A stretch of 41,130 bases of DNA from a bacterium ADurb.Bin236. GTDB lineage: Bacteria; UBP15; UBA6099. Positions 2,387-33,283 of this stretch are shown one piece after another. Numbering within the stretch: position 1 is the stretch's first letter; each line of letters starts with the position of its first letter. A program made the translations under genes and the position numbers. The stretch is from positions 1-41,130 of the forward strand of contig MWCD01000034.1 in NCBI GenBank assembly GCA_002069885.1, read 5' to 3'. Below the pieces are notes generated by a model. That model was not told the origin of the DNA. It was given only the letters and a program-made list of their open reading frames with translations, and did not search any database.

Positions 2387-4051
2387 ATGAAGAAACTAGT
2401 ACTAGCAGCATTGGCATTAACACTCACGGTTGGAATCTCCGTGAAGTCGTATTCCGCGACGCTTGTGGACGTTCATAGCGGCCACTGGGCTGCGGACGCG
2501 GTGCAGAAGCTCGTCGACAGCGGCCTGATCGAAGGCTACCCCGACGGGACGTTCAAGGGGGACAGGCCCCTCACGAGGTACGAGTACGCCATGGTTATTG
2601 CCAGAATGATGGATATTCTGGACAAGACGTACTGCCTGAAGAGCGAATGCAAGGCAGCCCCTGCGGCTCCGGGAGCCCCTTCGGCTCCGGGAATCAGCCC
2701 GGCTCAGCTCGATGAGATTCGCGACATAGTGAAAAAGCTTGCCGCGGAATTCAAAGACGAACTGGCTGCCCTGAAAGTGAAAGTTGACGAGAACTCCAGC
2801 CGCATCGACAAGTTGGAGAAGAAAGTCGACAACGCTTTCCTTGGCAAACTGCAGGTCGGCGGAAGCGTCCGCCAGAGGATCGACGCTCCCGGCACGGATC
2901 TGGCTGACGCGACATTCGTGTCGACGTACAACAGCCTGTACGGGACGGCTATCGCCAACGGTGATCTGAACGCCGGATACGAAATGCTCGCCAACCTGAC
3001 GTTCGACGGCGAAGCCGGCAAGAACGTCACGTTCTCGTTGGGCCTTCAAAAGACACTGTTGAATCGCGCAACGATAGGCGAAAACTCAACAGCTCCGCAG
3101 GATGACGATCTAAAGCTCGTGCACGCTTTCGTAGATTTGAACTTCTCGAACGACGTGGCTGAACTTGATGTTCTCAAGTTGCGCTCAGGTTATCAGGACC
3201 TAGCGTTCGGCCCGTATGGGATGATGGTTGACACGACAGGCGCGGACTCGATGGCCGCAATGAAACTTGATGTGGCCAAGAGCGTTGTGGCCCTGACGGG
3301 ATTTGCCGGCGCGCTCGATATGGACCAGTTGGGCGTCGGGATGCCGGAAGGCCTCGGCGGAGGAGAAAGAGACCTCTACGCCGCCGCCCGCCTCGGACTC
3401 GACCTGCCGTTCGTCGACCTCGGCGTCAACTACCTCGCCTCCGGCTTCGACAAAGAGAAGGCGTGGGGCGTGGATATGGTCGCTCCGCTCCTGAAGGACT
3501 CGATGTTCCTGAAGGAACTGCGCGGCGAGTACATGAAGGTTGTGGACCTGACCACGGGCGCCAGCCCGGCGGCCGGGGACACGGATTACAGCTTCGTGGT
3601 CGGCCTCGACCTTTACAAGAGCAAAAAGGCCGGCATCAGCGTCACATACGGGGACATCCCCGCCGTGACAGGTCTCACGAGCGCTGTCTCCAACCCGTTC
3701 ACCGAGTATGACACCGTCTGCCCGAGAGGGCTTGACGTTTCGGCCGCCAACTGCATTTCCTACAACTCCGGCAACCTGATTCTTCCCGCCGGTTTTGAAG
3801 GCTTCGGCGTCGAAGGCACATACACGGTTCTAGGCGATGTTGAACTCGGCGGAAAGGCCGTCATGGGCAACTATGCCGGCGGAGCCCTCGGAGCCATCGA
3901 TCTCGACGGCAAGAAGTATCCGGGCTTCGGCGCTGTTTCCGTGACAAAGCCGATCAACAAAGACTCGCAGTTCAAAGTCGAGTACATGCAGCAGGGAGCT
4001 TCCGACTATATCCTCAATCGCGTCAGAGGCGAGCTGCTCATCAACTTCTAA
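2387..4051 (+). CDS. SLH-domain outer-membrane porin
   Basis: This exported protein has 554 residues. A signal peptide is cut near SYSA (about residue 24). One S-layer-homology domain follows (25-75, with HWAADAVQKL, GYPDGTF and the TRYEYA block). SLH domains bind secondary cell-wall polymers or peptidoglycan, so it should tether the outer membrane to the wall. A linker rich in Ala, Pro and Gly (89-104) and a predicted coiled coil (105-150) lead to a beta-barrel rich in alternating hydrophobic strands, ending in Asn-Phe, the usual barrel-assembly signal. Two cysteines at 83 and 88 sit between SLH and linker. The ATG at 2387 has GGGAGG six bases upstream. The gene stands alone, with a long leader and a strong terminator, as expected for a highly expressed major surface protein. 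Pore activity is inferred from architecture. Confidence 0.9.
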   Translation: MKKLVLAALALTLTVGISVKSYSATLVDVHSGHWAADAVQKLVDSGLIEGYPDGTFKGDRPLTRYEYAMVIARMMDILDKTYCLKSECKAAPAAPGAPSAPGISPAQLDEIRDIVKKLAAEFKDELAALKVKVDENSSRIDKLEKKVDNAFLGKLQVGGSVRQRIDAPGTDLADATFVSTYNSLYGTAIANGDLNAGYEMLANLTFDGEAGKNVTFSLGLQKTLLNRATIGENSTAPQDDDLKLVHAFVDLNFSNDVAELDVLKLRSGYQDLAFGPYGMMVDTTGADSMAAMKLDVAKSVVALTGFAGALDMDQLGVGMPEGLGGGERDLYAAARLGLDLPFVDLGVNYLASGFDKEKAWGVDMVAPLLKDSMFLKELRGEYMKVVDLTTGASPAAGDTDYSFVVGLDLYKSKKAGISVTYGDIPAVTGLTSAVSNPFTEYDTVCPRGLDVSAANCISYNSGNLILPAGFEGFGVEGTYTVLGDVELGGKAVMGNYAGGALGAIDLDGKKYPGFGAVSVTKPINKDSQFKVEYMQQGASDYILNRVRGELLINF

Positions 4052-4073
4052 TTTTTTCACTCTGTGACACCTA

Positions 4074-4109
4074 CCCCCGGAGGACAGATGTTCTCCGGGG
4101 GTTTTTTTT
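4074..4109 (+). terminator. Rho-independent terminator of the SLH-porin gene
   Basis: A perfect 9-bp stem, CCCCCGGAG (4074-4082) with CTCCGGGGG (4093-4101), has a 10-base loop and is followed by eight T residues (4102-4109). It lies 23 bases after the porin stop codon and isolates that gene from the downstream operon. Confidence 0.95.
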
Positions 4110-4161
4110 CATCCGGTTTCATTCTAAAATCAGGCGTGCGCCCTGAAACGGAGAGACAACA

Positions 4162-5631
4162 GTGAACAAAGCATCCGACAAAGAAAAACGCGCCGGGAGA
4201 GCCGCGCGGATATGCTCATTGGCGCTTATTGCGACGGCGCTTGCCGTGTCAGGCGTCCCGACGGCGGCTCAGGAAAAAGCGATCGCCGAGCGCCTGCTCA
4301 ACATATCGGCGGACAACTTCGAGGGCGACGCCGAACAGGGCGCAATGTCGCTTCGCGGCAACGTGAAGATCGAGTACGGTGGGATGTTGATGGAATCCGG
4401 CGCGATGGAACTGGACAACGAGACTGGCGAGGTCTCCGCCGAAGGAGACATCTCGGTTACGCGGGAAGGGCTGGAGTTCAAAGGATGCGGATTCAAATAC
4501 AACTACAAGACGGGGGAAGGCTCGCTGAAGGCGGCGTCCGCTCGTATGGAGGGCATGTATTTTTTCAGCGGAAACGTGGCTATCGCCAATGAAAGCGTGG
4601 CGATGAGCGACGTGTCCGCGTCCACCTGCCCTCTGGACGCGAGCGATTATACCATAAAGGCGAAGAGGGTGGAGCTTTCGCAGGACGGGCGGGCGAAGTT
4701 CAACAAAATATCGTTTCATTTCAAAGACAGGCGGGTGATGAGCTGGCCGTCGTACACGATGAGGCCGGGAGGCCGCAGGGACGCGGGCGCGGGTTCGGGC
4801 GTTCAGTACGGCAGTTGGATTTTCTCTCCGCCTTCTCTCGGATACTCGGATGTCGGGGGCGCGGAAATCAGGTCCGGAGTGGCTCGCGCGCGCGCTAAAG
4901 GCGACACGGTGGGCCTTTACACCAACTATTATTTCAGGGAAGGGTTTTTCACAGAGGCAAGATGGCAAAAGCCGATAGGGGACTTTAACGCGACCCTGCG
5001 CTTCGGCAAACAATTTAAAGAAAACAGAGGATATTTCAAATATTATAGTCCTGAGACGGTGTGGAACTCGCCGACGGCGGAGTTGAAGATGCCGCAGAAG
5101 GCGTATCGCGGGGCGCGGTTGCTGGTGGACGGCGGCTTGGAGGCGGGCATGCTCAAGGAAGACCATCTCGACAAGGCCCAAGGCCGAGCGCACGCGAACG
5201 TCAACGCCAAATATATCCTCAACCCCAAGAAAAAGATTCAGCACGCTTTAATCTCGGACTTGAGGCTGGGGCTTTATAAAGGATGGGAGAGATACCGCGT
5301 GATAGGCTCCGGGCTAGAGACGTCATTCGCGTTCGGAGAGAGGCGGAACTTAAGGGTTCAATATCTGATGTTCAACCATAACGGAGACACGCCGTTCGAC
5401 ACCGACAGGGTGAACACGAACAACAAGCTTTTCGTGTACGCGGACCACAAGATAAGCAAGAGGACGAGCTTGATGGTCGACATGCAGTACGACGACGATC
5501 TGAAAAAGTTCGACGAGGTCGTGCTGGGAGGATTCAGGCAGTACAAGTGCGTCGAGTTTGAACTGGCGTGGCGAGCGAAGAGAAAAATGATAAACATGAG
5601 CATGAGCATAAGAGGGCCGGAGGGCAGATGA
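4162..5631 (+). CDS. LptD/OstA-like outer-membrane protein, short form
   Basis: The 489-residue protein begins with a basic stretch and a signal peptide (to about 37), followed by an OstA/LptA-type beta-jellyroll (about 45-190) with the repeating pattern ISADNFEGD, LRGNVKIEYGG, MELDNETGEVSAEGD. Next comes the LptD-type junction: STCPLDASDYTIKAKRVEL, then a GYSDVGG segment that matches the start of the LptD barrel. LptD inserts lipopolysaccharide into the outer leaflet. This one is much shorter than classical LptD (about 780 residues), so the barrel from about 210 onward should have fewer strands. The GTG start at 4162 has GGAGAG at 4150-4155. Its TGA overlaps the next ATG, making it the first gene of a five-gene coupled operon. 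It may be a dedicated paralogue for another glycolipid rather than the housekeeping LptD. Confidence 0.8.
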   Translation: MNKASDKEKRAGRAARICSLALIATALAVSGVPTAAQEKAIAERLLNISADNFEGDAEQGAMSLRGNVKIEYGGMLMESGAMELDNETGEVSAEGDISVTREGLEFKGCGFKYNYKTGEGSLKAASARMEGMYFFSGNVAIANESVAMSDVSASTCPLDASDYTIKAKRVELSQDGRAKFNKISFHFKDRRVMSWPSYTMRPGGRRDAGAGSGVQYGSWIFSPPSLGYSDVGGAEIRSGVARARAKGDTVGLYTNYYFREGFFTEARWQKPIGDFNATLRFGKQFKENRGYFKYYSPETVWNSPTAELKMPQKAYRGARLLVDGGLEAGMLKEDHLDKAQGRAHANVNAKYILNPKKKIQHALISDLRLGLYKGWERYRVIGSGLETSFAFGERRNLRVQYLMFNHNGDTPFDTDRVNTNNKLFVYADHKISKRTSLMVDMQYDDDLKKFDEVVLGGFRQYKCVEFELAWRAKRKMINMSMSIRGPEGR

Positions 5632-6326
5632 TTCTGAAGGCTGCTAAGGCGTTGACGGTTGCGGTTCTGGCGGCTGCGGTTCTGGCGGCGTCGGCGCCCA
5701 GCGCGTCGGCGACCGCTCGCAATATGACGGAAAGCAACAAGATGGCGCTCGCGCGGCGGACGCGCGAGGTCCAGCGCGCCGAGCTTTTTAGAGTGAGCCG
5801 GGGCAGAATGCGTCCCAACCCGGTCGTGTTTTCCCGGCATGGGATTTATCAGCACGTTCTGCAGAATCACGACCTGATAATAAGAGAGCACACGGATTAT
5901 TTCGGCAACGCGATGGCGAGGATGGGGAAGTTTTACGCGGAGAGAGGGCCGGAGGCTCGGCGGGCGGGCGGCTCCGCGTCCATGGAATCTCGCATGAAGG
6001 AGTTGCTGAGGATTTACGATCTGGAGCCTGCGCTTGAGAAATGTGAGACGCTGTATGAGATATGGCAGGCTGTGGAGGAGTCAAGGGGCGCGATGGAGGC
6101 GCTGCCCGCGAGGGCGGCGATGGCGGCGAACGCGGCTATCTGGGCTTCCGAGGCGTTCGGCGGCGACCCGCCTGAGAGCGTGTCTGCCAAGCTGGAAGAG
6201 CTTGCGGGCCGATGGCCGCCCGCGCGCGATGTTTTCGAGATTGAAAAAAATCTAAAAGAGTTGGCGGAAGCGTATGCGGAGCTTTTCGCAGGGATAGCGG
6301 CGGAGCGCGGGGAGGGCGGGAGATGA
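5628..6326 (+). CDS. Secreted helical protein of unknown function
   Basis: No family is recognised. The start is placed at ATG 5628, overlapping the upstream stop as ATGA, because GGAGGG (5619-5624) precedes it and the product then begins with a clean signal peptide (MILKAAKALTVAV to ASA, about residues 1-28); a longer reading frame upstream would bury this. The mature part of about 200 residues is rich in Ala, Glu and Arg and looks helical, with an aromatic/His segment in its first third (NPVVFSRHGIYQHVLQNHD) and amphipathic helices later. It is likely periplasmic. Its stop overlaps the next start (ATGA at 6323). Position between an LptD-like protein and another exported protein suggests a periplasmic partner; this is inference from order only. 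Confidence 0.75.
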   Translation: MILKAAKALTVAVLAAAVLAASAPSASATARNMTESNKMALARRTREVQRAELFRVSRGRMRPNPVVFSRHGIYQHVLQNHDLIIREHTDYFGNAMARMGKFYAERGPEARRAGGSASMESRMKELLRIYDLEPALEKCETLYEIWQAVEESRGAMEALPARAAMAANAAIWASEAFGGDPPESVSAKLEELAGRWPPARDVFEIEKNLKELAEAYAELFAGIAAERGEGGR

Positions 6327-6886
6327 GGAAGGCGCTCGCGTTTTTTGTTGTCGCGGCGGCGTTGTGCCTGTCCGCGCTAGCCGAGACTCCCGCGCCGGAA
6401 AAGGCCACTATAGAGTTTGACGACCGGGCGGTGGTAGTGTCGGCAGACCGAGCGCTACTGGAAAAGATAAGCCGGTGGGCGGCGGAACTGGAGCCTGACG
6501 CGGCGCGTGGCCGGGTCGAGGATCTGATACGGGCCGAGTTCGGGGACGGGGTCGATGTGGAAGTATTCGAGACGGGCCGGGCGGCGGATGCTGTCGGCGT
6601 GAAGACGATTAGAACCACGTTGAGGGCGGGCGCGATGGACGGGCTGATACCTCCCCTTGAGGGGCTTTCGGCGGAACGTGCAAAGTCCGTACTGGGCATG
6701 TTCGGGTTCACGTCGGTGACAGTCGAAGAGTTCGAATCTCTGACGGAGCAGGGCAGGATAAGGCTGCTGGCCGGAGCGCGTAGCGGCCGGGTGGCGGTCA
6801 TCCACGGGGCGGACGCGTTCGACGCGGTAGTCATCCATCTCATGCGGGAGGCTGACGGGGAGAAAGCCGGCAAAGTTGTCGAATAG
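6323..6886 (+). CDS. Small secreted protein of unknown function
   Basis: A 187-residue protein starts at the ATG of an ATGA overlap. It has a signal peptide (MRKALAFFVVAAALCLSALA, cut near residue 20) and a mature part of mixed alpha/beta character without transmembrane segments or cysteines. Short beta-strand-like stretches (KATIEFDDRAVVVSA, GRVAVIHG) alternate with acidic helices. No enzyme motif or known domain was recognised. The coupling to both neighbours and the shared export signal make a periplasmic component of the same assembly plausible. Confidence 0.72.
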   Translation: MRKALAFFVVAAALCLSALAETPAPEKATIEFDDRAVVVSADRALLEKISRWAAELEPDAARGRVEDLIRAEFGDGVDVEVFETGRAADAVGVKTIRTTLRAGAMDGLIPPLEGLSAERAKSVLGMFGFTSVTVEEFESLTEQGRIRLLAGARSGRVAVIHGADAFDAVVIHLMREADGEKAGKVVE

Positions 6887-6892
6887 ATAAAC

Positions 6893-8524
6893 ATGAAAAA
6901 AACAATATTGGCATTGAAGGCCTTCGCGGCGCTCGCCGCCGTTCTGGCGTGTCTGGCGTGCGCGCCGCGCGCGTTCGCCGACGGCGAGCCTGAACTTGAC
7001 GTGTTCGTGGCGATGGCGACTACGGAACAATTGGAGGCCGGGTTCGTGATCGAGGCGGGCGGGATGCCAGTCTATGTGAAGGCCGAACGGAAGCCGCCCT
7101 CGTGGGAATCCCTTGTCGTGCCTGTGCCCGGCGGCGGGCAGAAACTGAAAGTGGTTCAGGTCCCGCCGAGAGCGGCGACCGGTGAAGAGAGGGAGGAGGC
7201 GCGAGCGATTATCCTTCCTATCCTCATTGAGGACAAGGCCCTCGCGCGAGGCGTCACTCTCCATCTGACAACTCCCGAAGGCGGCTCGGCTTCGATACCC
7301 ATCCCGCCGAGAAAGGTTTTTATTTCCATTCCTTTTATCATTCCCGTCACCGAGGCTGTGCATCCTGATTTCGGCGACAGGGACAGGAACATCATCCTTC
7401 AGATAGTTCCGAAGATAACCAAGAAGGCTCAGGTGGACGTGGACAACACCGCCGCAGATGGGATAGTGGCGGACATCAAGTACGAGGGAATAGCGTACCT
7501 GAAGCTCAAAGACATTCTCAACCGCACCAACAGGCGGGACATGGACGGCACGTTCTTTGTCGGCAAGGAGCGCGACAACAGGTGGACTTTCATCACGGAG
7601 AACCTTTTCGAGAGGTTCGACGAAAGGAACGTGGGGGTGCAGAAAAACCAGATCATCGGCTCGGGATTGAAGAGCTTGTGGCGCGTGGACCAACTGAACA
7701 ATATGAACAAAACGAAATATGGCGCGAACATCAGGCGGGAGGGCCGTTTCGGGTACGCGCAGATCGGCAACGTGGACAGGAAGGTGAAGGACAGGGCTCA
7801 CTTCGAGATGGGATACGGGGACGAGCGACTGATGCTGGTTGGCAGGCTGGAGGGGCTTGAGGTGGTGAATCCTTCCTCGCGGCTGGGCGTGGCGATGAAG
7901 GTTGAGAAAGAGGGGTTCCAGTTGAGGACAAGCGGGGGGGACGACCGCAGGTTTTTCGAGGGAAGGTTCGGCACGCTCAAGGTGCAGGACTTCGACGACG
8001 AAGGGGAGATAGACGATTATTTTAATTTTGACTTCACATACACTACGGCGCTCGGCGGGGACGCGAAGAGATGGCGTCCGCGCAAGAAATGGCTTGTGTC
8101 CGGAGACGCCTCGATGAGGTTCTGGGGGCGTGGCAGTTCCTCTTGGCTCGAAGGGGAGTTCAGAGTGGACGCCACCTACAAAAGGGACTGGGCGGCAATT
8201 TTGCGGTTCAACAACGACTTTGCCCGCATAACGGGCCGCGCGGAGAATCCCCTCTGGGAATCTCTCTTTATTTCTTTCATGCGCAACAGAGACTATTTCA
8301 ACCGCGACGACAGGCTGGCCAAGTTCGGACTAGACTCGATTTTCGTGGATCTGGATTACTCGCGGCAGGGAAAAGGGGCAAATTACGGCAGGCGCATCAG
8401 ATACGGATTTTCAAGAAACGTAATCATATACAAATACGATTTTCCGATGGAGTTTTATTTCGAGACGGTGAAGAGCCGGGTGTACAGGCCGGGCGCGGGC
8501 ATAAGCATAAGGAGGTATCTGTGA
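6893..8524 (+). CDS. Predicted outer-membrane beta-barrel protein
   Basis: The 543-residue exported protein has a signal peptide ending near AFA (about 29); a cysteine in the signal region lacks a convincing lipobox. Residues 30-170 look like beta-rich soluble domains (proline-rich stretches, EGGSASIPIPPRKVF). From about 190 to the end the sequence has amphipathic strand patterns with many aromatic and charged residues (YGANIRREGRFGYAQIG, HFEMGYGDERLMLVGRLEG, EGEFRVDATYKRDWAAILRF), typical of a barrel, although it ends in Arg-Arg-Tyr-Leu rather than Phe. No named family was recognised. The last part faintly recalls the translocation-assembly style seen in LptD-like barrels, but this was not established. 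Its stop overlaps the next GTG (GTGA at 8521). Confidence 0.72.
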   Translation: MKKTILALKAFAALAAVLACLACAPRAFADGEPELDVFVAMATTEQLEAGFVIEAGGMPVYVKAERKPPSWESLVVPVPGGGQKLKVVQVPPRAATGEEREEARAIILPILIEDKALARGVTLHLTTPEGGSASIPIPPRKVFISIPFIIPVTEAVHPDFGDRDRNIILQIVPKITKKAQVDVDNTAADGIVADIKYEGIAYLKLKDILNRTNRRDMDGTFFVGKERDNRWTFITENLFERFDERNVGVQKNQIIGSGLKSLWRVDQLNNMNKTKYGANIRREGRFGYAQIGNVDRKVKDRAHFEMGYGDERLMLVGRLEGLEVVNPSSRLGVAMKVEKEGFQLRTSGGDDRRFFEGRFGTLKVQDFDDEGEIDDYFNFDFTYTTALGGDAKRWRPRKKWLVSGDASMRFWGRGSSSWLEGEFRVDATYKRDWAAILRFNNDFARITGRAENPLWESLFISFMRNRDYFNRDDRLAKFGLDSIFVDLDYSRQGKGANYGRRIRYGFSRNVIIYKYDFPMEFYFETVKSRVYRPGAGISIRRYL

Positions 8525-9543
8525 GGCTGAAGGCGGCTCTTTTAACGCTTGTCTTGTCTGCGGCCTTCGCGGCTTGCGCCGCGCTTGCGGACGATACCAC
8601 TTCCTTCGAAGTCGCGGACAGCGAACTTGCGACTCTGACCCTGCGGACATCCGACGGGCTTGCGCTGGTGGACGGCTCCCCGGAGCTGGTGGAAGAACTC
8701 CGGTCGCTGCTCGGGATGGAAGCCATTCCGCCATTTGCTAATAGGCAACTATTTGCATGGCTCACGGCGCATGGCGCGGCGGCTGAAAACATCAGGCTGT
8801 TCGCGCGCGGAGGGGCGGCGGACAGTTCGCCCTCGGCGATCAGGTGGCGCAAGACGACCGTGCGAAAAGCGATCCTCTCGGGCGACGCGCCATACATACT
8901 CGGCAGGCCGCTTCATGAAGCGTACATGGCTATAAGAGCATCGGGCGCTAGGATGCTCCTCCTCGATTCGACCGCCGAACTCGATTCAATATCCGATTTT
9001 CCCCGCACCGTCTTCATATTTTCTTCGGCGTACGGCGCCGGGATGGACGGCATATATGTGGATGGAGCGGACAGGTCTCCGGGGTTGCCGGGATATAACA
9101 TAGTGGCGTTCGACGGCAAAAGCGGAAAGGTGACGGCGTCAGGCGGTTTCAACATGTTCATCGGGCCGGAGGAAAGCGAGAGGATGGAAGGGTTCCTGCG
9201 GGCGCTGCCGGAGGGTTCCTACGCGGCGGCTTCCATCAGGTGGGGGTCGGGGCCGTTCATGTCGCCGGGAGCGGCGGACGCCCTGAGCGAGTTCGGCTCG
9301 CGGCAGAGTCTCGACCCGGAGATGCTGATATCGCACGCGATGTTCGGCGGCAAGGCCGCAGGGGCTGTCGCGGCGGAGGCGGCGGCGGTGAACCTCGGTT
9401 CGAAAGTCGTTCTTTTCGGCTCAGGAGACAGGGTGTCCGAGGCGCGCATCGCGGCGGGCGAGGTTCCTTGCCCCGGCCGCGTATTGGCCCTCGCTGGAAC
9501 CCGGCCCGACGACGCTCTTTTCATCCTCGAAGAAATCAGATAA
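8521..9543 (+). CDS. Secreted ILEI/FAM3-like domain protein
   Basis: The start is set at GTG 8521, overlapping the upstream TGA, with AAGGAGGT at 8509-8516; the frame continues upstream, but only this start gives a signal peptide (RLKAALLTLVLSAAFAACA, to about residue 22). Length is 340 residues. An N-terminal unknown region (23-130) precedes a block resembling the ILEI/FAM3 domain: a strand with DGIYVDGADRS (177-186), then PGYNIVAFDGKSGKV (190-204), GGFNMFIGPEESERMEGFL (208-226), LPEGSYAAASIRW (229-241) and ADALSEFGS (252-260). This order matches the fold known from FAM3 proteins and bacterial proteins where it is thought to bind carbohydrate. It closes the five-gene operon. Binding or recognising the exported glycan is a reasonable guess. 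Confidence 0.7.
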   Translation: MRLKAALLTLVLSAAFAACAALADDTTSFEVADSELATLTLRTSDGLALVDGSPELVEELRSLLGMEAIPPFANRQLFAWLTAHGAAAENIRLFARGGAADSSPSAIRWRKTTVRKAILSGDAPYILGRPLHEAYMAIRASGARMLLLDSTAELDSISDFPRTVFIFSSAYGAGMDGIYVDGADRSPGLPGYNIVAFDGKSGKVTASGGFNMFIGPEESERMEGFLRALPEGSYAAASIRWGSGPFMSPGAADALSEFGSRQSLDPEMLISHAMFGGKAAGAVAAEAAAVNLGSKVVLFGSGDRVSEARIAAGEVPCPGRVLALAGTRPDDALFILEEIR

Positions 9544-9616: not shown

Positions 9617-10720
9617 ATGGAAGAATTGACCGGAAAAGGGAAGAAAAAAAGGCGCGTGCTGATAATCAGCGACGGCAAGCGCGGCCACGTCCATCAGACG
9701 GAGGGCGTAGCGCGCAAGCTCAAAGGAATTATCGGCAAAAAGCTCGAAATAAAGATGAGCAAGCCTTACTATCTTTTCCTCGTGGCGATGTCTTTTATGG
9801 CGAGGCGTTTCAAATTTTCGTCTCCTCTGATTCTCTTCTGGATACAGAAAGTCACGAATGTGTCGATTGAAAGCTTGGTGAAGTTTGCGCCCGACCTGAT
9901 AATATCCGCCGGCTCGTTCACCCATCCGGTGACGTTCCTGCTTGGTAAGATATGGAACGCCAAGACGGTGGTGTGCATGAGGCCGTCGCTGTTGTCGGCG
10001 TCGGATTTCAATCTGGTAGTGGCTCCGAGGCACGATCAGGAGAAATGCAAGGGCGAGAACGTGATATACACGATGGGGGCCGCGAGCCACATATCCGAGG
10101 GGTTCATATTTGCCGAATCTGTCGCGCTGCACCAGAAGATAAAGGGAGACCTTCATCGCCCGGTCGGGTTGCTCATCGGAGGGGAAAGCGCGCACGCGCG
10201 CCTCGACGCGGAGATGGCCGGGGAACTGATGAACGAGGTTTTGTTAGCCTGCGAGGAGTACGACCTGTCTCTGTTGACCACCACGTCGCGGCGCACGTCC
10301 CCGGCGGCCGAGGCCGTTGTCAGGGACGAACTCAAGGAGCATCCCCGCAACGCTTATCTGCTTTTGGCTTCAGAAAGCCCGGACAACCCGGTTCCCGGAA
10401 TAATCGGCCTCTGCGAGGCGGTCATAGTTACCGAAGACAGCGTGTCGATGGTGTCCGAGATAATCACCGGCGGCAAGTACGCGGTGGTGGTGAAGATAGG
10501 AAGAAAGAAGAAAAGAAACAAGTTCGACAAGATGCTGCAGGACCTTACGGACGAGCAGTACATAACATACACCTCGATAGACGGAATCAACCGCGCGATA
10601 GGCGACGTGCTGAACCGCAAGAGGCAGGGATTCAGGCCGCTGGACGAATCGAAGCGGGTGGCGCAGGAGATCGAGCGCAGGTTTTTCGGGGGCGGGTCGA
10701 GCATGGGCGCGATGAGATGA
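9617..10720 (+). CDS. ELM1-family putative glycosyltransferase
   Basis: This 367-residue protein resembles the bacterial ELM1/GtrOC1 family (the Mito_fiss_Elm1 fold, GT-B-like). Diagnostic parts are ISDGKRGHVHQTEGVA near the N terminus (about 19-34), RPSLLSASDFNLVVAPRHD in the middle and ITEDSVSMVSEIITGGKYAVVV near the C terminus, matching the nucleotide-sugar-binding TEDS-x-S-M-x-SEA-x-x-TG pattern of the family. Bacterial members are thought to transfer sugars during lipooligosaccharide or surface-glycan synthesis. The ATG at 9617 has no good ribosome site, but a TATAAT box just upstream suggests a very short leader. It opens a run of same-strand glycosyltransferase genes. The acceptor cannot be deduced. 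Confidence 0.85.
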   Translation: MEELTGKGKKKRRVLIISDGKRGHVHQTEGVARKLKGIIGKKLEIKMSKPYYLFLVAMSFMARRFKFSSPLILFWIQKVTNVSIESLVKFAPDLIISAGSFTHPVTFLLGKIWNAKTVVCMRPSLLSASDFNLVVAPRHDQEKCKGENVIYTMGAASHISEGFIFAESVALHQKIKGDLHRPVGLLIGGESAHARLDAEMAGELMNEVLLACEEYDLSLLTTTSRRTSPAAEAVVRDELKEHPRNAYLLLASESPDNPVPGIIGLCEAVIVTEDSVSMVSEIITGGKYAVVVKIGRKKKRNKFDKMLQDLTDEQYITYTSIDGINRAIGDVLNRKRQGFRPLDESKRVAQEIERRFFGGGSSMGAMR

Positions 10721-10753: not shown

Positions 10754-11722
10754 ATGAGGTTTGACATATCGAAAGCGGCGGCGGCTTCAGTTGCGGCGCT
10801 GATAATTTTCTCAGGCGCGGCGCGCGCGGTTTCAGACAGAGCGATAGATTACCTCAGCAAAGCCGCGCCGAGGCCGGCGGGCATGGGCGGCGCTTTCACC
10901 GCAGTCGGCGGAGACCCCATCGGGCTGGTATGGAACCCATCGGCGGCGCTGCGTTCGGACCGTTTCTCTTTCTCCCGCAACCATAGCCTCAGGCATTTTC
11001 CCGGCGACAAGCGCAATTTGGACCAGTTTGATTCCGACACTGTCGGAGTGGTGATCCCCGTTCAGGGCGAAGGCGCGGTCGGGCTGTCATTTACCATCCC
11101 CGGCGAGTGGGGGATAGACCATGCGGACACGAACGGGCTATTGCCGGACAGAGAAAAACTGCGGGGCCGCGAGCGGCGAATCTCGTACAGCGAATTTGGC
11201 GGCTCGCGCGGCTCCTCGGCGTATTCGGCGGATTCCAACTGGTTCAGATACGAAGACATAGACGACGCCTCAACCGCAAACAGGAGCTTTGAGACGGGCG
11301 GCATGTTCTCCTTCTACTATGAAGCGGACAACGGGATGAGGTACGGCGTGTCCCTGCGCGGGATTGTCGAGAGGATAAAAGGCAAAGACGAGGGCCGCAA
11401 AAACAATACTACGGCGACGTTCGGAGTCGCGTACCGGCCAGACGAAAAGGCGTCCACGCTGTTAGCGGCCGACTTTGAGTTGTGCTGGAAAAATAATTTG
11501 CGGACAAGATGGTTCGCGGGCGCCGAACGCGAGTTCGACGGAAGATATTTCATAAGGGCGGGGTCTATGAACGGTCTGCCTACATACGGAGCGGGAGCGG
11601 AGGCGGGTTCGTTAAGGCTCGACTTCGCGACTGTTAAAAACCTGCTGCCGAAAGTAACCGGCAACGAGGACGTAAAAGAGTTTCAGGACGGACATTTCAT
11701 ATCCTATACGGTAAACATGTGA
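10754..11722 (+). CDS. PorV/UPF0164-like outer-membrane protein
   Basis: A 322-residue protein with a signal peptide (to about residue 25, AARA) and the hallmark start of PorV/FadL-like barrels: RPAGMGGAFTAVGGDP followed by VWNPSAAL. The remainder consists of amphipathic strands typical of a mid-size barrel. PorV-type proteins shuttle type IX secretion cargo in Bacteroidota, while other UPF0164 members have unknown roles; no other type IX parts are visible here, so only a general outer-membrane role is assigned. The ATG at 10754 has GAGGCGAG upstream. Its TGA overlaps the next GTG. Confidence 0.78.
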   Translation: MRFDISKAAAASVAALIIFSGAARAVSDRAIDYLSKAAPRPAGMGGAFTAVGGDPIGLVWNPSAALRSDRFSFSRNHSLRHFPGDKRNLDQFDSDTVGVVIPVQGEGAVGLSFTIPGEWGIDHADTNGLLPDREKLRGRERRISYSEFGGSRGSSAYSADSNWFRYEDIDDASTANRSFETGGMFSFYYEADNGMRYGVSLRGIVERIKGKDEGRKNNTTATFGVAYRPDEKASTLLAADFELCWKNNLRTRWFAGAEREFDGRYFIRAGSMNGLPTYGAGAEAGSLRLDFATVKNLLPKVTGNEDVKEFQDGHFISYTVNM

Positions 11723-12317: not shown

Positions 12318-14582
12318 ATGCGAGATAACGCGCGCTTCCTGAAAATAATGTATCTACTGCCTGAGTTGAACGTCGGCGGAGTGGAGACGCATGTGCTGGC
12401 GATGTCCGAGGGCATGCGCAAGGCCGGACACGAAGCTATTGTGGTGTCCAACGGCGGCGCGTTGCTGCCCCGGCTCGAAGCGTCCTGCGTCAGGCATATA
12501 ACGCTTCCGATTCACAAAAAATCCCCTGCGGCGGTCAGAAAGATGGCAGGCGCGGTGCGGGCGATAGCGCTCGAAGAGGGCGTTGACATAGTGCACGCGC
12601 ATTCCCGCGTCCCGGCATGGGTGGCGCATTTTGCCTCGAAAGGCCTCCGCTCCGCTTTCATCATTACCGCCCACGGACAGTACGCGCCCCACCTCGGCAG
12701 CTCGGTGATGACGAAAGGCGACAGGATAATATGCGTCAGCGAAGTCATCCGCGAGCACATGAGGGAAAGGCTCGGCGCCGACTCCGCCAAAATGCGGGTG
12801 GTGTACAACGGGATAGACATTGAGGCGGCGGAGAGCAGCGTGATGAACCGCCGTCCCGGTTCCGAAGTGCGCGCCGAATTGGGAATCCCCGAATCTGCTC
12901 CCGTCATCGGCTCTGTCGGCAGACTCACTGTCGCAAAAGGCTTCAAGTTTCTGCTCGAAGCTTTCAGGCGGCTGAGGGAGAGAATGCCGGAGGCGCGCGC
13001 CCTCATAGTCGGAGACGGCCCCATGAACAAGGAACTGTCACAACTAGCCGCCGAGCTTGGCGTGGCAGACAGGGTTATTTTCACTGGAGTCAGAACGGAC
13101 ATCTACGACCTGCTAGGCGCGATGGACGCTTACGTGGTATCCTCGGTTTTCGAAGGGTTTCCGATGGGATGTCTTGAAGCGATGGCGGCGAGGGTTCCCA
13201 TAGCCGCAACCAACGTGGGCGGGATACCTGAGATGCTGGAAGACGGCCGCGCCGCGCTGTTGGTCGAGCCGAAAAACCCGGAAGCTCTGGCGGAAGCCGC
13301 GCGCAGGCTGCTTGAAGACAGACGCTTCGCGGACGGCGTCGCCTCGGAAGCCCGCGAGGATCTCGAAAACAAATTTTCCCAGCGGAAGATGCTCGATGAC
13401 GCGCTAGGAATATACTGCGATGCGCTGCGGGAGAAGCGCGGCTATGTCGGCCCTGTGGCAGGAGCGCCGACTGCGGAAAAACCGCGAGTTCTGCTCACAC
13501 TGCCCGAACTGCGCGTCGGCGGAGTCGAGACTCACGTTATCGATCTTGCCGTCGGCCTCAAGGAAAAAGGATACATCCCGCTCGTCGTTTCATTCGGCGG
13601 AAAACTCGTGGAAAAACTGGAGGCCGCCGGAATCGAGCATGTCAAAATGCCGGTGCACGTGAAATCGCCCATCCCAATCTTCAAGATGGTCGGTCCGATG
13701 CGGCAGATAATCGAGGACAGGCGGATAGAACTGGTTCATGCGCATTCCCGCGTTCCCGCGTGGATATGCAGCTTGGCGCTGCGCGGAAGCGGCAGCCGCC
13801 GAATCCCCTTCGTCACCACATGCCACAGCACTTACAGCGTTCACGCCGGAAGCCGCGTCATGGTCGGCTCGGACGCAATGCTTGCCGTCAGCGAGTATGT
13901 GCGCAGACACATGCTCGAGCATTTCGGCCCGAACCCTGACGACATCCGGACGGTGCACAATGGCGTCTCTCCAGATATTTACGACGAAAGCCGGGAGGAG
14001 GAGATAAGGAACCGCTACCGCGCAGAACTTGGGATTTCCCCGTCTTCGAAAGTGGTCGGCATGGTAGCCTCGCTCACCCCTCGGAAAGGATACCACCACC
14101 TCGTGAGCGCGTCTGCGGCGGTTCTCAGGGAGAACCCGGACACCGTCTTCCTCGGAGTCGGCGGCGGCCCTCAGCTCGAAGAACTCGAAAAACAGGCGCG
14201 CGAACTCGGCGTCTCCGAACGCTTCAGGTTCCTCGGCGTCCGCAACGACGTCCGCGACCTGTTGTGCCTGTTCGATATATTTACGCTGGCGTCCGCTAGC
14301 GAAGGGTTGCCGTATGTCATCCTCGAAGCCATGTGCATGAAGAGGGCGATAGTGACCACCGACGTGGGGGGGATACCGGAAGCGCTCGAACACGGGAACA
14401 ATGGACTGCTCGTGAAACCCGGCGACGTATCCCAGCTTGCGGATGGAATAAACAGGTTGCTCGCCGACGAGGCGCTGGCGCGCCGCATCGCCGCCGCCGC
14501 CCGACAGACTGTCATTAATTTCTTCACCGTTAACCGCATGGTGGATAAAACGGAGGAGACGTACCGGAAACTCCTTGCGTGA
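12318..14582 (+). CDS. Double GT4 glycosyltransferase (two complete GT-B enzymes in one chain)
   Basis: At 754 residues this is twice the usual GT4 length. Both halves (about 1-375 and 388-754) carry every GT4 landmark: an N-terminal LPEL-x-VGGVETHV glycine-rich loop, VHAHSRVPAW, an SVGRLT or MVASLT-x-x-KG donor-domain start, and the E-x7-E motif (EGFPMGCLE and EGLPYVILE). The halves resemble each other more than most GT4 pairs do, sharing even a 14-base identical stretch (12597-12610 and 13740-13753), so an internal duplication is likely. Two similar transferases in one chain could add consecutive or identical sugars, as in polymerising or disaccharide-adding enzymes. ATG 12318 has GGAG at 12306-12309. 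Donor and acceptor are unknown. Confidence 0.9.
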   Translation: MRDNARFLKIMYLLPELNVGGVETHVLAMSEGMRKAGHEAIVVSNGGALLPRLEASCVRHITLPIHKKSPAAVRKMAGAVRAIALEEGVDIVHAHSRVPAWVAHFASKGLRSAFIITAHGQYAPHLGSSVMTKGDRIICVSEVIREHMRERLGADSAKMRVVYNGIDIEAAESSVMNRRPGSEVRAELGIPESAPVIGSVGRLTVAKGFKFLLEAFRRLRERMPEARALIVGDGPMNKELSQLAAELGVADRVIFTGVRTDIYDLLGAMDAYVVSSVFEGFPMGCLEAMAARVPIAATNVGGIPEMLEDGRAALLVEPKNPEALAEAARRLLEDRRFADGVASEAREDLENKFSQRKMLDDALGIYCDALREKRGYVGPVAGAPTAEKPRVLLTLPELRVGGVETHVIDLAVGLKEKGYIPLVVSFGGKLVEKLEAAGIEHVKMPVHVKSPIPIFKMVGPMRQIIEDRRIELVHAHSRVPAWICSLALRGSGSRRIPFVTTCHSTYSVHAGSRVMVGSDAMLAVSEYVRRHMLEHFGPNPDDIRTVHNGVSPDIYDESREEEIRNRYRAELGISPSSKVVGMVASLTPRKGYHHLVSASAAVLRENPDTVFLGVGGGPQLEELEKQARELGVSERFRFLGVRNDVRDLLCLFDIFTLASASEGLPYVILEAMCMKRAIVTTDVGGIPEALEHGNNGLLVKPGDVSQLADGINRLLADEALARRIAAAARQTVINFFTVNRMVDKTEETYRKLLA

Positions 14583-32191: not shown

Positions 32192-33283
32192 TCATTGCGG
32201 CGGTTGAGATTTTTCAGTATCAGTCTGGGGCGCGTCGTCCGCAGTCTGTTCCGGAGCGGGGGAGGGCGGCGGCTGAACCGCAGGGTCGGCGCAACACCTT
32301 GCCCCGGAGTAACTTCTGGAAGTTCCCGGCAGCCCCCACCCGCTGTTTTCACAAGTCGGGGCCGGGTCGGCGCTTCCGGAACCGCCTCTGAGCGTCTTAT
32401 ATCTATCCTTATAGTTCTCGTTTGTCCATTCCCACGCGTTCCCGAATATATCCGCCACACCTTCGGGAGACACGCATTCAGGGCGCGAGCCGGATGGATA
32501 GACTCCAACTGCGGGAGTCATATTCAGGGCGGCGTTGCAGGCGGACGCGTTGAAGTCCGGCATGTTGATTCTGTTCGGAGCGCAGGCAGGCCCGGCGCAT
32601 GCGCGCGCCCATTCCCCGCCTTCGCACAGCCTTTTCCCGGCTTCCTCGCAGAACTTCGCCGCGGCAACCCAACTCAGCCCCGTCGCCGGGCGCTCTCCCT
32701 CTTTGTTCGGCGCCTCATGCGCGTCCACGCAGAACGTCCCGTCGATGAATACCATCCCTTTGGGACAGCTTATTCCTTTGTGCCTGTCGAAAAGCGCGAT
32801 GAAACGCGACAGCGACTCCGGAAGAATCTCCGCCGCCATCGCGTCCGCGTCGGAAATCCTCGCGTCGATATTCTCAAGTCTCAGTTTCAGTCGGAAGGCG
32901 TAGTCGGTCTGCAACTTGCTTTCAGCCTCTGCGAGCAGAAGCGCGATCCTGTCGCGCTCCGGGAGGAGCTTTTTGAGTTCTTCCATAGCGGCGGAAACTT
33001 CGGACGCCGTGACGTCCAGAGAGTCTACAAGCGCCGCAAAATCCACCGGACACACTGAGCCGGGGCCGTCGAGCGCGGCGCGGATTTTCTCCCTGAACAT
33101 CGGTGCCGCCGCCTTGGAAACCTCTATTTCAGACAAAAACGCCGCCGCCTCGTCTCTAAGCTGTTCCGCCGCCGACCGATATTCCCGCTCCTCAATTTCC
33201 GCGCATTCGCCGAAAAAGGGCAAAAAAACAAGCGTCAGGGCGGATAGTAAAATAGACAGAGAGAAGTGCGAGAGGAGCTTCAT
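32192..33283 (-). CDS. Secreted formylglycine-generating-enzyme (SUMF1) family protein
   Basis: This 363-residue protein has a signal peptide (cut near residue 27-28), a helical coiled-coil domain (about 30-165) and a SUMF1/FGE-sulfatase domain (about 170-335). Landmarks of the latter: CPKGMVFIDGTFCVDAHEAPN, ATGLSWVAAAKFCEEAGKRLC, GGEWARACAG, GVADIFGNAWEWTNENY and TLRGGSG. Many prokaryotic SUMF1 homologues are not sulfatase-activating and serve as binding or regulatory domains; no sulfatase gene is in the window. The tail (335-363) is rich in Pro, Asp and Gln and likely disordered. An extended -10 promoter precedes the gene. Confidence 0.88.
   Translation of the reverse strand: MKLLSHFSLSILLSALTLVFLPFFGECAEIEEREYRSAAEQLRDEAAAFLSEIEVSKAAAPMFREKIRAALDGPGSVCPVDFAALVDSLDVTASEVSAAMEELKKLLPERDRIALLLAEAESKLQTDYAFRLKLRLENIDARISDADAMAAEILPESLSRFIALFDRHKGISCPKGMVFIDGTFCVDAHEAPNKEGERPATGLSWVAAAKFCEEAGKRLCEGGEWARACAGPACAPNRINMPDFNASACNAALNMTPAVGVYPSGSRPECVSPEGVADIFGNAWEWTNENYKDRYKTLRGGSGSADPAPTCENSGWGLPGTSRSYSGARCCADPAVQPPPSPAPEQTADDAPQTDTEKSQPPQ

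Follow-up and report, generated by a model that had tools for sequence, protein, structure and literature searches.

A mini-LptD and four coupled exported proteins in the phylum UBP15: a possible second delivery system of the outer membrane

The routes by which non-LPS lipids arrive at the outer membrane are for the most part an open question. In E. coli, LptD contains the disulfides C31-C724 and C173-C725, and the disulfides joining its jellyroll to its barrel are required (PMC8423444). A second LptD-family protein, plastid LPTD1, is devoted to glycerolipids and provides a precedent for lipid cargo (PMC9888252). The ILEI/FAM3 domains of POMGnT1 and FAM3C are GlcNAc binders, the fold of POMGnT1 contacting the sugar through R129, D179, and R207 (PMC9802357). 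Here, an operon that encodes relatives of LptD and of the ILEI/FAM3 proteins was analyzed in a window of 41,130 nucleotides, the whole stretch of DNA under study. No description of this gene set was found in the literature.

Layout of the operon and the LptD-like protein g1

The earlier note had described five coupled genes for exported proteins at 4162-9543 of the forward strand, and their reading frames, junctions, and hydrophobic N-termini are all borne out. The first, g1 (4162-5631, GTG start), encodes the mini-LptD of 489 aa, and is followed by g2 (5628-6326, 232 aa), g3 (6323-6886, 187 aa), g4 (6893-8524, 543 aa), and g5 (8521-9543, GTG start, 340 aa), all on the + strand. The g1/g2 and g2/g3 junctions are 4-bp ATGA overlaps, a 6-bp gap separates g3 from g4, and g4/g5 is a GTGA overlap. 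A strong intrinsic terminator at 4073-4102 (+), with a 13-pair stem containing 9 GC pairs followed by T7, closes the upstream gene for an SLH porin, and the operon is therefore taken to start at ~4110-4162. All five products display an N-terminal hydrophobic segment that begins at residues 5-17 (Kyte-Doolittle mean of 2.3-2.9 over 12 residues), with no second strong segment on the same scale, in keeping with Sec signal peptides. The operon is coupled to no ABC transporter or flippase of the inner membrane, and g2, g3, and g5 did not match the LptE families of Pfam and NCBIfam.

The product of g1 comprises a signal peptide, an OstA/LptA-type jellyroll (residues ~45-200), an LptD-type junction, and a barrel of ~14 strands (248-483). 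The jellyroll matched the Pfam family LptC (PF06835, 22.1 bits vs. a cut-off of 21, 1.2e-4) and also the LptD_N jellyroll family, while the g1 profile matched LptD of N. gonorrhoeae (7omm) at 2.5e-7 over profile positions 32-190. Alignment with the genome's own LptD (hhalign, 98.3%, 1.3e-14) covered the jellyroll and the junction; the two barrels were not significantly similar by sequence (E 0.09-0.29). Neither g1 nor the genome's own full-length LptD matched the LptD C-terminal domain of Pfam (PF04453), and no relationship between g1 and g4 was detectable. The AF2 model of g1, built from six sequences (pLDDT 67, pTM 0.51), displayed the jellyroll and 14 barrel strands between residues 248 and 483. 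Since residues 200-245 fall below pLDDT 50, the barrel perhaps has 16 strands. Across residues 40-489 the best matches of the model in both Foldseek and VIA were LptD entries, which ranked first in Foldseek at E 1e-14; in VIA, the thirteen top-ranked LptD chains covered both domains with Z of 14.5-19.4 and a large rmsd of 6.9-11 Å. Residues 40-157 matched LptA (2r1a) with Z 12.6, and the barrel by itself also matched BamA, TamA, and FhaC (Z 13-14). Only two cysteines of g1, Cys156 and Cys463, are invariant in the six sequences, C109 being variable. In the hhalign alignment, Cys156 is opposite Cys165 of the full-length LptD that the genome encodes, and Cys463 falls on the LptD CysCys pair 714-715 in a single, non-significant hit of a free barrel-only alignment. 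A cysteine is present at both LptD-type sites, in the jellyroll and at the barrel end, the barrel-side alignment being weak. The LptD relationship that the earlier note had proposed for this short protein is upheld by the jellyroll, the junction, and LptD as the best structural match. Because the jellyroll, the structural matches, and the cysteine sites fit but the 14 modelled strands fall short of the 26 of an LptD barrel, g1 is LptD-related and “LptD-like” is the fitting name.

A full-length lptD elsewhere in the genome, for which a search had been recommended, was found: on contig C8, a gene directly after an LptF/G gene encodes an LptD-type protein of 771 aa. Contig C6 carries a second LptF/G gene as well as an LptA/C-like one, and an LpxC gene lies on contig C27. 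Therefore, g1 is an additional protein and not the housekeeping LptD of the genome, nor is it the only one, which is what the earlier note would have taken as a refutation. The remark that no Lpt partners are visible holds within the window but not genome-wide, given two LptF/G genes and an LptA/C-like gene elsewhere.

Proteins g2 to g5 and their distribution

For g2, g3, and g4, no Pfam or NCBIfam family was matched above cut-off, and PDB sequence profiles gave no relevant match; g3 reached NF3 at E 0.003 over 42 positions only. Matches of g3 to PASTA or Secretin_N domains stayed at E 0.08-0.2, that to PASTA being found in one of eight members at E 0.22, and neither domain is claimed. The N-terminus of g5 aligned with g3 (hhalign, probability 96.8%, 2e-10), and the g3 and g5 profiles cross-matched in two further UBP15 genomes (G004 and G005) and in a second genus outside the phylum. 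At the level of sequence profiles, g3 thus shares a domain with g5 residues 35-147; no relationship between g2 and g3 was detectable. The product of g4 probably forms a barrel in the outer membrane, preceded by ~230 N-terminal residues in the periplasm, judging by its signal peptide and its barrel-type C-terminus (PGAGISIRRYL, vs. FGATLSIMSF in the second genus). These two features favor the earlier description of g4 as a second barrel; its AF2 model, from six sequences, reached pLDDT 35, adds nothing to it, and was left out of fold searches. In g5, the ILEI domain that had been suggested is confirmed above the curated cut-off (PF15711, 6e-10, 39.9 bits vs. 27), and residues 191-276 matched the POMGnT1 stem and FAM3A/B chains in the PDB profile search. 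Among 386 genomes, full-length homologues of g5 are confined to UBP15 and the second genus. With ILEI proteins from elsewhere, the match lies chiefly in the ILEI half of g5, and the one that was checked (L120) has a different architecture.

Within the candidate phylum UBP15, to which the genome belongs and which is represented by seven genomes, the five genes travel as a unit, as the earlier note had suggested should be looked for. The order g1-g5, followed by the ELM1-like and PorV-like genes described below, recurs in three more members of the genus and in G005, which belongs to a different family and in which identity to the window is 39% for g1, 35% for g2, 33% for g3, 53% for g4, and 36% for g5 (tblastn). 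G004 contains g1-g4 up to a contig end, while G006 (78% complete) contains a g5 fragment only, at a contig start and with no ELM1 gene behind it; g4 is present in six of the seven genomes. Gene order and overlaps are retained across families. Because order and near-identical overlaps recur in another family at 33-53% identity, the grouping of g1-g5, on comparative sequence grounds, is not due to chance. The g2 gene of G005 contains one in-frame internal stop (L030, 11500-12270), possibly a sequencing or assembly error, or else a true interruption.

Profile searches covered ~386 genomes over 327 genera, and absence elsewhere refers to this sample. Outside UBP15, g3 and g4 profiles matched in one genus only (G119, G256, G383, and G386), presumably Thermodesulfobium. 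A scan of genome contigs with exact peptide patterns of g4 returned only records corresponding to UBP15 genomes. In the second genus, g2-g3-g4 are coupled in the same order as in UBP15, with 4-bp overlaps at both junctions in G383; in G256, the g3/g4 overlap is 4 bp and that of g2/g3 is 1 bp with the starts chosen here. Similarity to the UBP15 proteins is strong for g4 (hhalign, 99.0%, 6.5e-18) and g3 (96.7%, 3.6e-10) and weak for g2 (E 3e-4, probability 39.7%), for which synteny provides backing. A full-length g5 homologue stands at a separate locus, between hemC-like and topA-like genes. Neither g1 nor LptD was matched in the second genus at E<0.1 with the g1 and UBP15 LptD profiles, which divergence may explain; LpxC, one LptF/G gene, and an LptA-like gene are present, and the genus may have a very divergent LptD. 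At L091 (7489-9200), its LptF/G gene is coupled to the LptA-like gene. g1 was found in UBP15 only, and the genes common to both lineages, g2-g3-g4 with g5, therefore form the conserved core, which does not need g1. It looks as though g1 is a UBP15 addition, or was lost in the second genus.

This distribution bears on a reading in which g1 is a decaying LptD copy beside an unrelated conserved operon of the other four genes. Such decay could account for a protein without much of the LptD barrel that is missing in the second genus, where g2-g4 stay together. Nevertheless, the g1 frame is open, with 37-39% identity in another genus and in another family; ~120 of its residues are invariant, and it overlaps g2 in the same way. 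Decay is accordingly considered very improbable.

Genomic neighborhood and envelope context

Directly downstream of g5 lies an ELM1-like gene (9617-10720, +; PF06258, 3.7e-56), which adjoins g5 in G001-G003 and G005, from two UBP15 families. Beside it in the same genomes is a gene for a PorV-like outer-membrane protein (10754-11722, +; NCBIfam PorV_fam, 2.7e-6, below cut-off). Many glycosyltransferase-like genes follow in the window. One protein of 754 aa (12318-14582) consists of two tandem GT4-like halves, ~41-43% identical to each other in relatives, and the product encoded at 32192-33283 is exported and FGE-sulfatase-like, with an N-terminal part that is helical as judged by eye. Such neighbors could suggest that the operon exports a polysaccharide that the downstream glycosyltransferases synthesize, g4 being its outer-membrane channel and g5 binding sugar through a domain whose relatives bind GlcNAc; AlgE and BcsC were also among the Foldseek matches of the g1 model, at ~1e-4 to 1e-3. 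However, G005 retains only the ELM1-like and PorV-like genes before nuo-type genes, no such linkage is found in G006, and no glycosyltransferase stands beside g2-g3-g4 in the second genus. Moreover, the GlcNAc contacts R129, D179, and R207 of POMGnT1 are replaced in g5 by P190, W241, and L269 (HMMER alignment, with a numbering offset of 86 that was deduced), so that sugar binding by the known ILEI site is unsupported, and the operon contains no Wza/OPX, Wzc, Wzx, TPR, or BcsC-like component. A polysaccharide exporter is thus held to be improbable, and the tie to a glycan of the downstream genes, proposed in the earlier note, is weakened beyond the ELM1-like gene.

Upstream of the operon, at 2387-4051, an OmpM/SlpA-type porin is encoded, with an SLH domain (2.3e-11) and a typical outer-membrane-protein C-terminus, which fits the envelope of a deep-branching diderm. 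Weakly matching ExbB/ExbD-like genes stand ahead of g2-g3-g4 in the second genus (PF01618, E 0.069, and PF02472, E 0.024, both below cut-off). At L061 (7258-8077), the ExbB-like gene is unusually short (~140 aa), the ExbD-like gene encodes a coiled coil, and a gene with a Cu_amine_oxidN1 domain precedes them. The main rival to a delivery function starts from this setting. It holds that g2-g5 contribute to assembling, spacing, or tethering the outer membrane, with the abundant SLH porin or the PorV-like protein as possible sites, and that g1 is an LptD duplicate turned structural or assembly part instead of exporting lipid. In both genera of family f1 the gene just before the operon encodes the SLH porin, the PorV-like gene is downstream, the ExbB/ExbD-like genes recall envelope systems driven by the PMF such as Tol-Pal, and the gene set persists without nearby glycosyltransferases. 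Against it, the porin gene is not adjacent to the operon in G005, g1 still has its jellyroll, with cysteines at the two LptD-type sites, and g2-g5 revealed no domain for binding peptidoglycan, the PASTA resemblance of g3 standing at E 0.22. Envelope maintenance of this kind is a serious alternative, although on balance we doubt it.

Proposed function and comparison with known systems

The preferred reading, to which we give a probability of roughly 0.4, is that these genes specify a second machine for delivery to the outer membrane, beside the normal Lpt system. A delivery function is suggested because g1 is LptD-related, all parts are exported, and g4 is barrel-like. We infer the outer-membrane site of g4, complex formation, transport activity, and cargo. 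The g4 barrel would lie in the outer membrane with g2, g3, and g5 as periplasmic partners, the domain common to g3 and g5 being a possible shared docking part. This older module of a barrel and periplasmic proteins would have gained g1, a shrunken LptD, in UBP15. An OstA-type bridge in the periplasm, which might be a shared LptA, would hand an amphiphilic cargo to the jellyroll of g1, and the small barrel of g1 would then pass it into the outer membrane. A glycolipid or another lipid distinct from bulk LPS would be the likeliest candidate for this cargo. Counting against such a machine, no LptE-like plug was recognized in the operon and a barrel of ~14 strands is less roomy than one of 26 for either a plug or the passage of LPS; furthermore, no inner-membrane transporter is coupled, and homology of the g1 barrel to that of LptD is not significant by sequence. 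Of the dedicated export or assembly machine that the earlier note envisaged, the LptD-like g1, the barrel-like g4, and the conserved unit stand, while a cargo made by the glycosyltransferases has become less likely. A bolder version, unlikely as we judge it, would place g2-g3-g4-g5 at the heart of a not yet described machine with which deep-branching diderms export or assemble material across the envelope, energized in one lineage by ExbB/ExbD-type proteins and joined in UBP15 by a captured mini-LptD, with an Lpt-style bridge feeding a non-LPS system of the outer membrane.

A short second relative beside a full LptD provides named genes with which to ask whether bacterial LptD-type proteins carry other cargo. 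In addition, the locus contributes g4, a probable family of outer-membrane barrels that Pfam lacks, and a paired g3/g5 domain found in two lineages among the genomes searched.

Among known systems, Tol-Pal and Ton-type machines driven by the PMF come to mind because the second genus has weak ExbB/ExbD-like genes ahead of g2-g3-g4, whereas the UBP15 operon has no such genes and no TolA/B, Pal, or TonB relative was recognized there. To the ILEI/FAM3 proteins (FAM3A/B/C and the POMGnT1 stem) the likeness is that of g5 191-276, by family and PDB profile; g5 differs in the loss of the three GlcNAc contacts and in its fusion to a g3-like domain. Plastid LPTD1, likened by description alone, is a second LptD-family protein as g1 is, but belongs to a eukaryotic organelle, and we know of no relatives of g2-g5 accompanying it. 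The closest comparison is LptD itself. g1 differs from it in length (489 aa), in its ~14 modelled strands against 26, in a single cysteine at the barrel end where LptD has two, and in being coupled to four non-Lpt genes in a genome that encodes a full-length LptD elsewhere. It nonetheless shares with LptD the signal peptide, OstA jellyroll, LptD-type junction, and C-terminal barrel, with one cysteine at each position of the interdomain disulfide, and LptD chains are its best structural matches.
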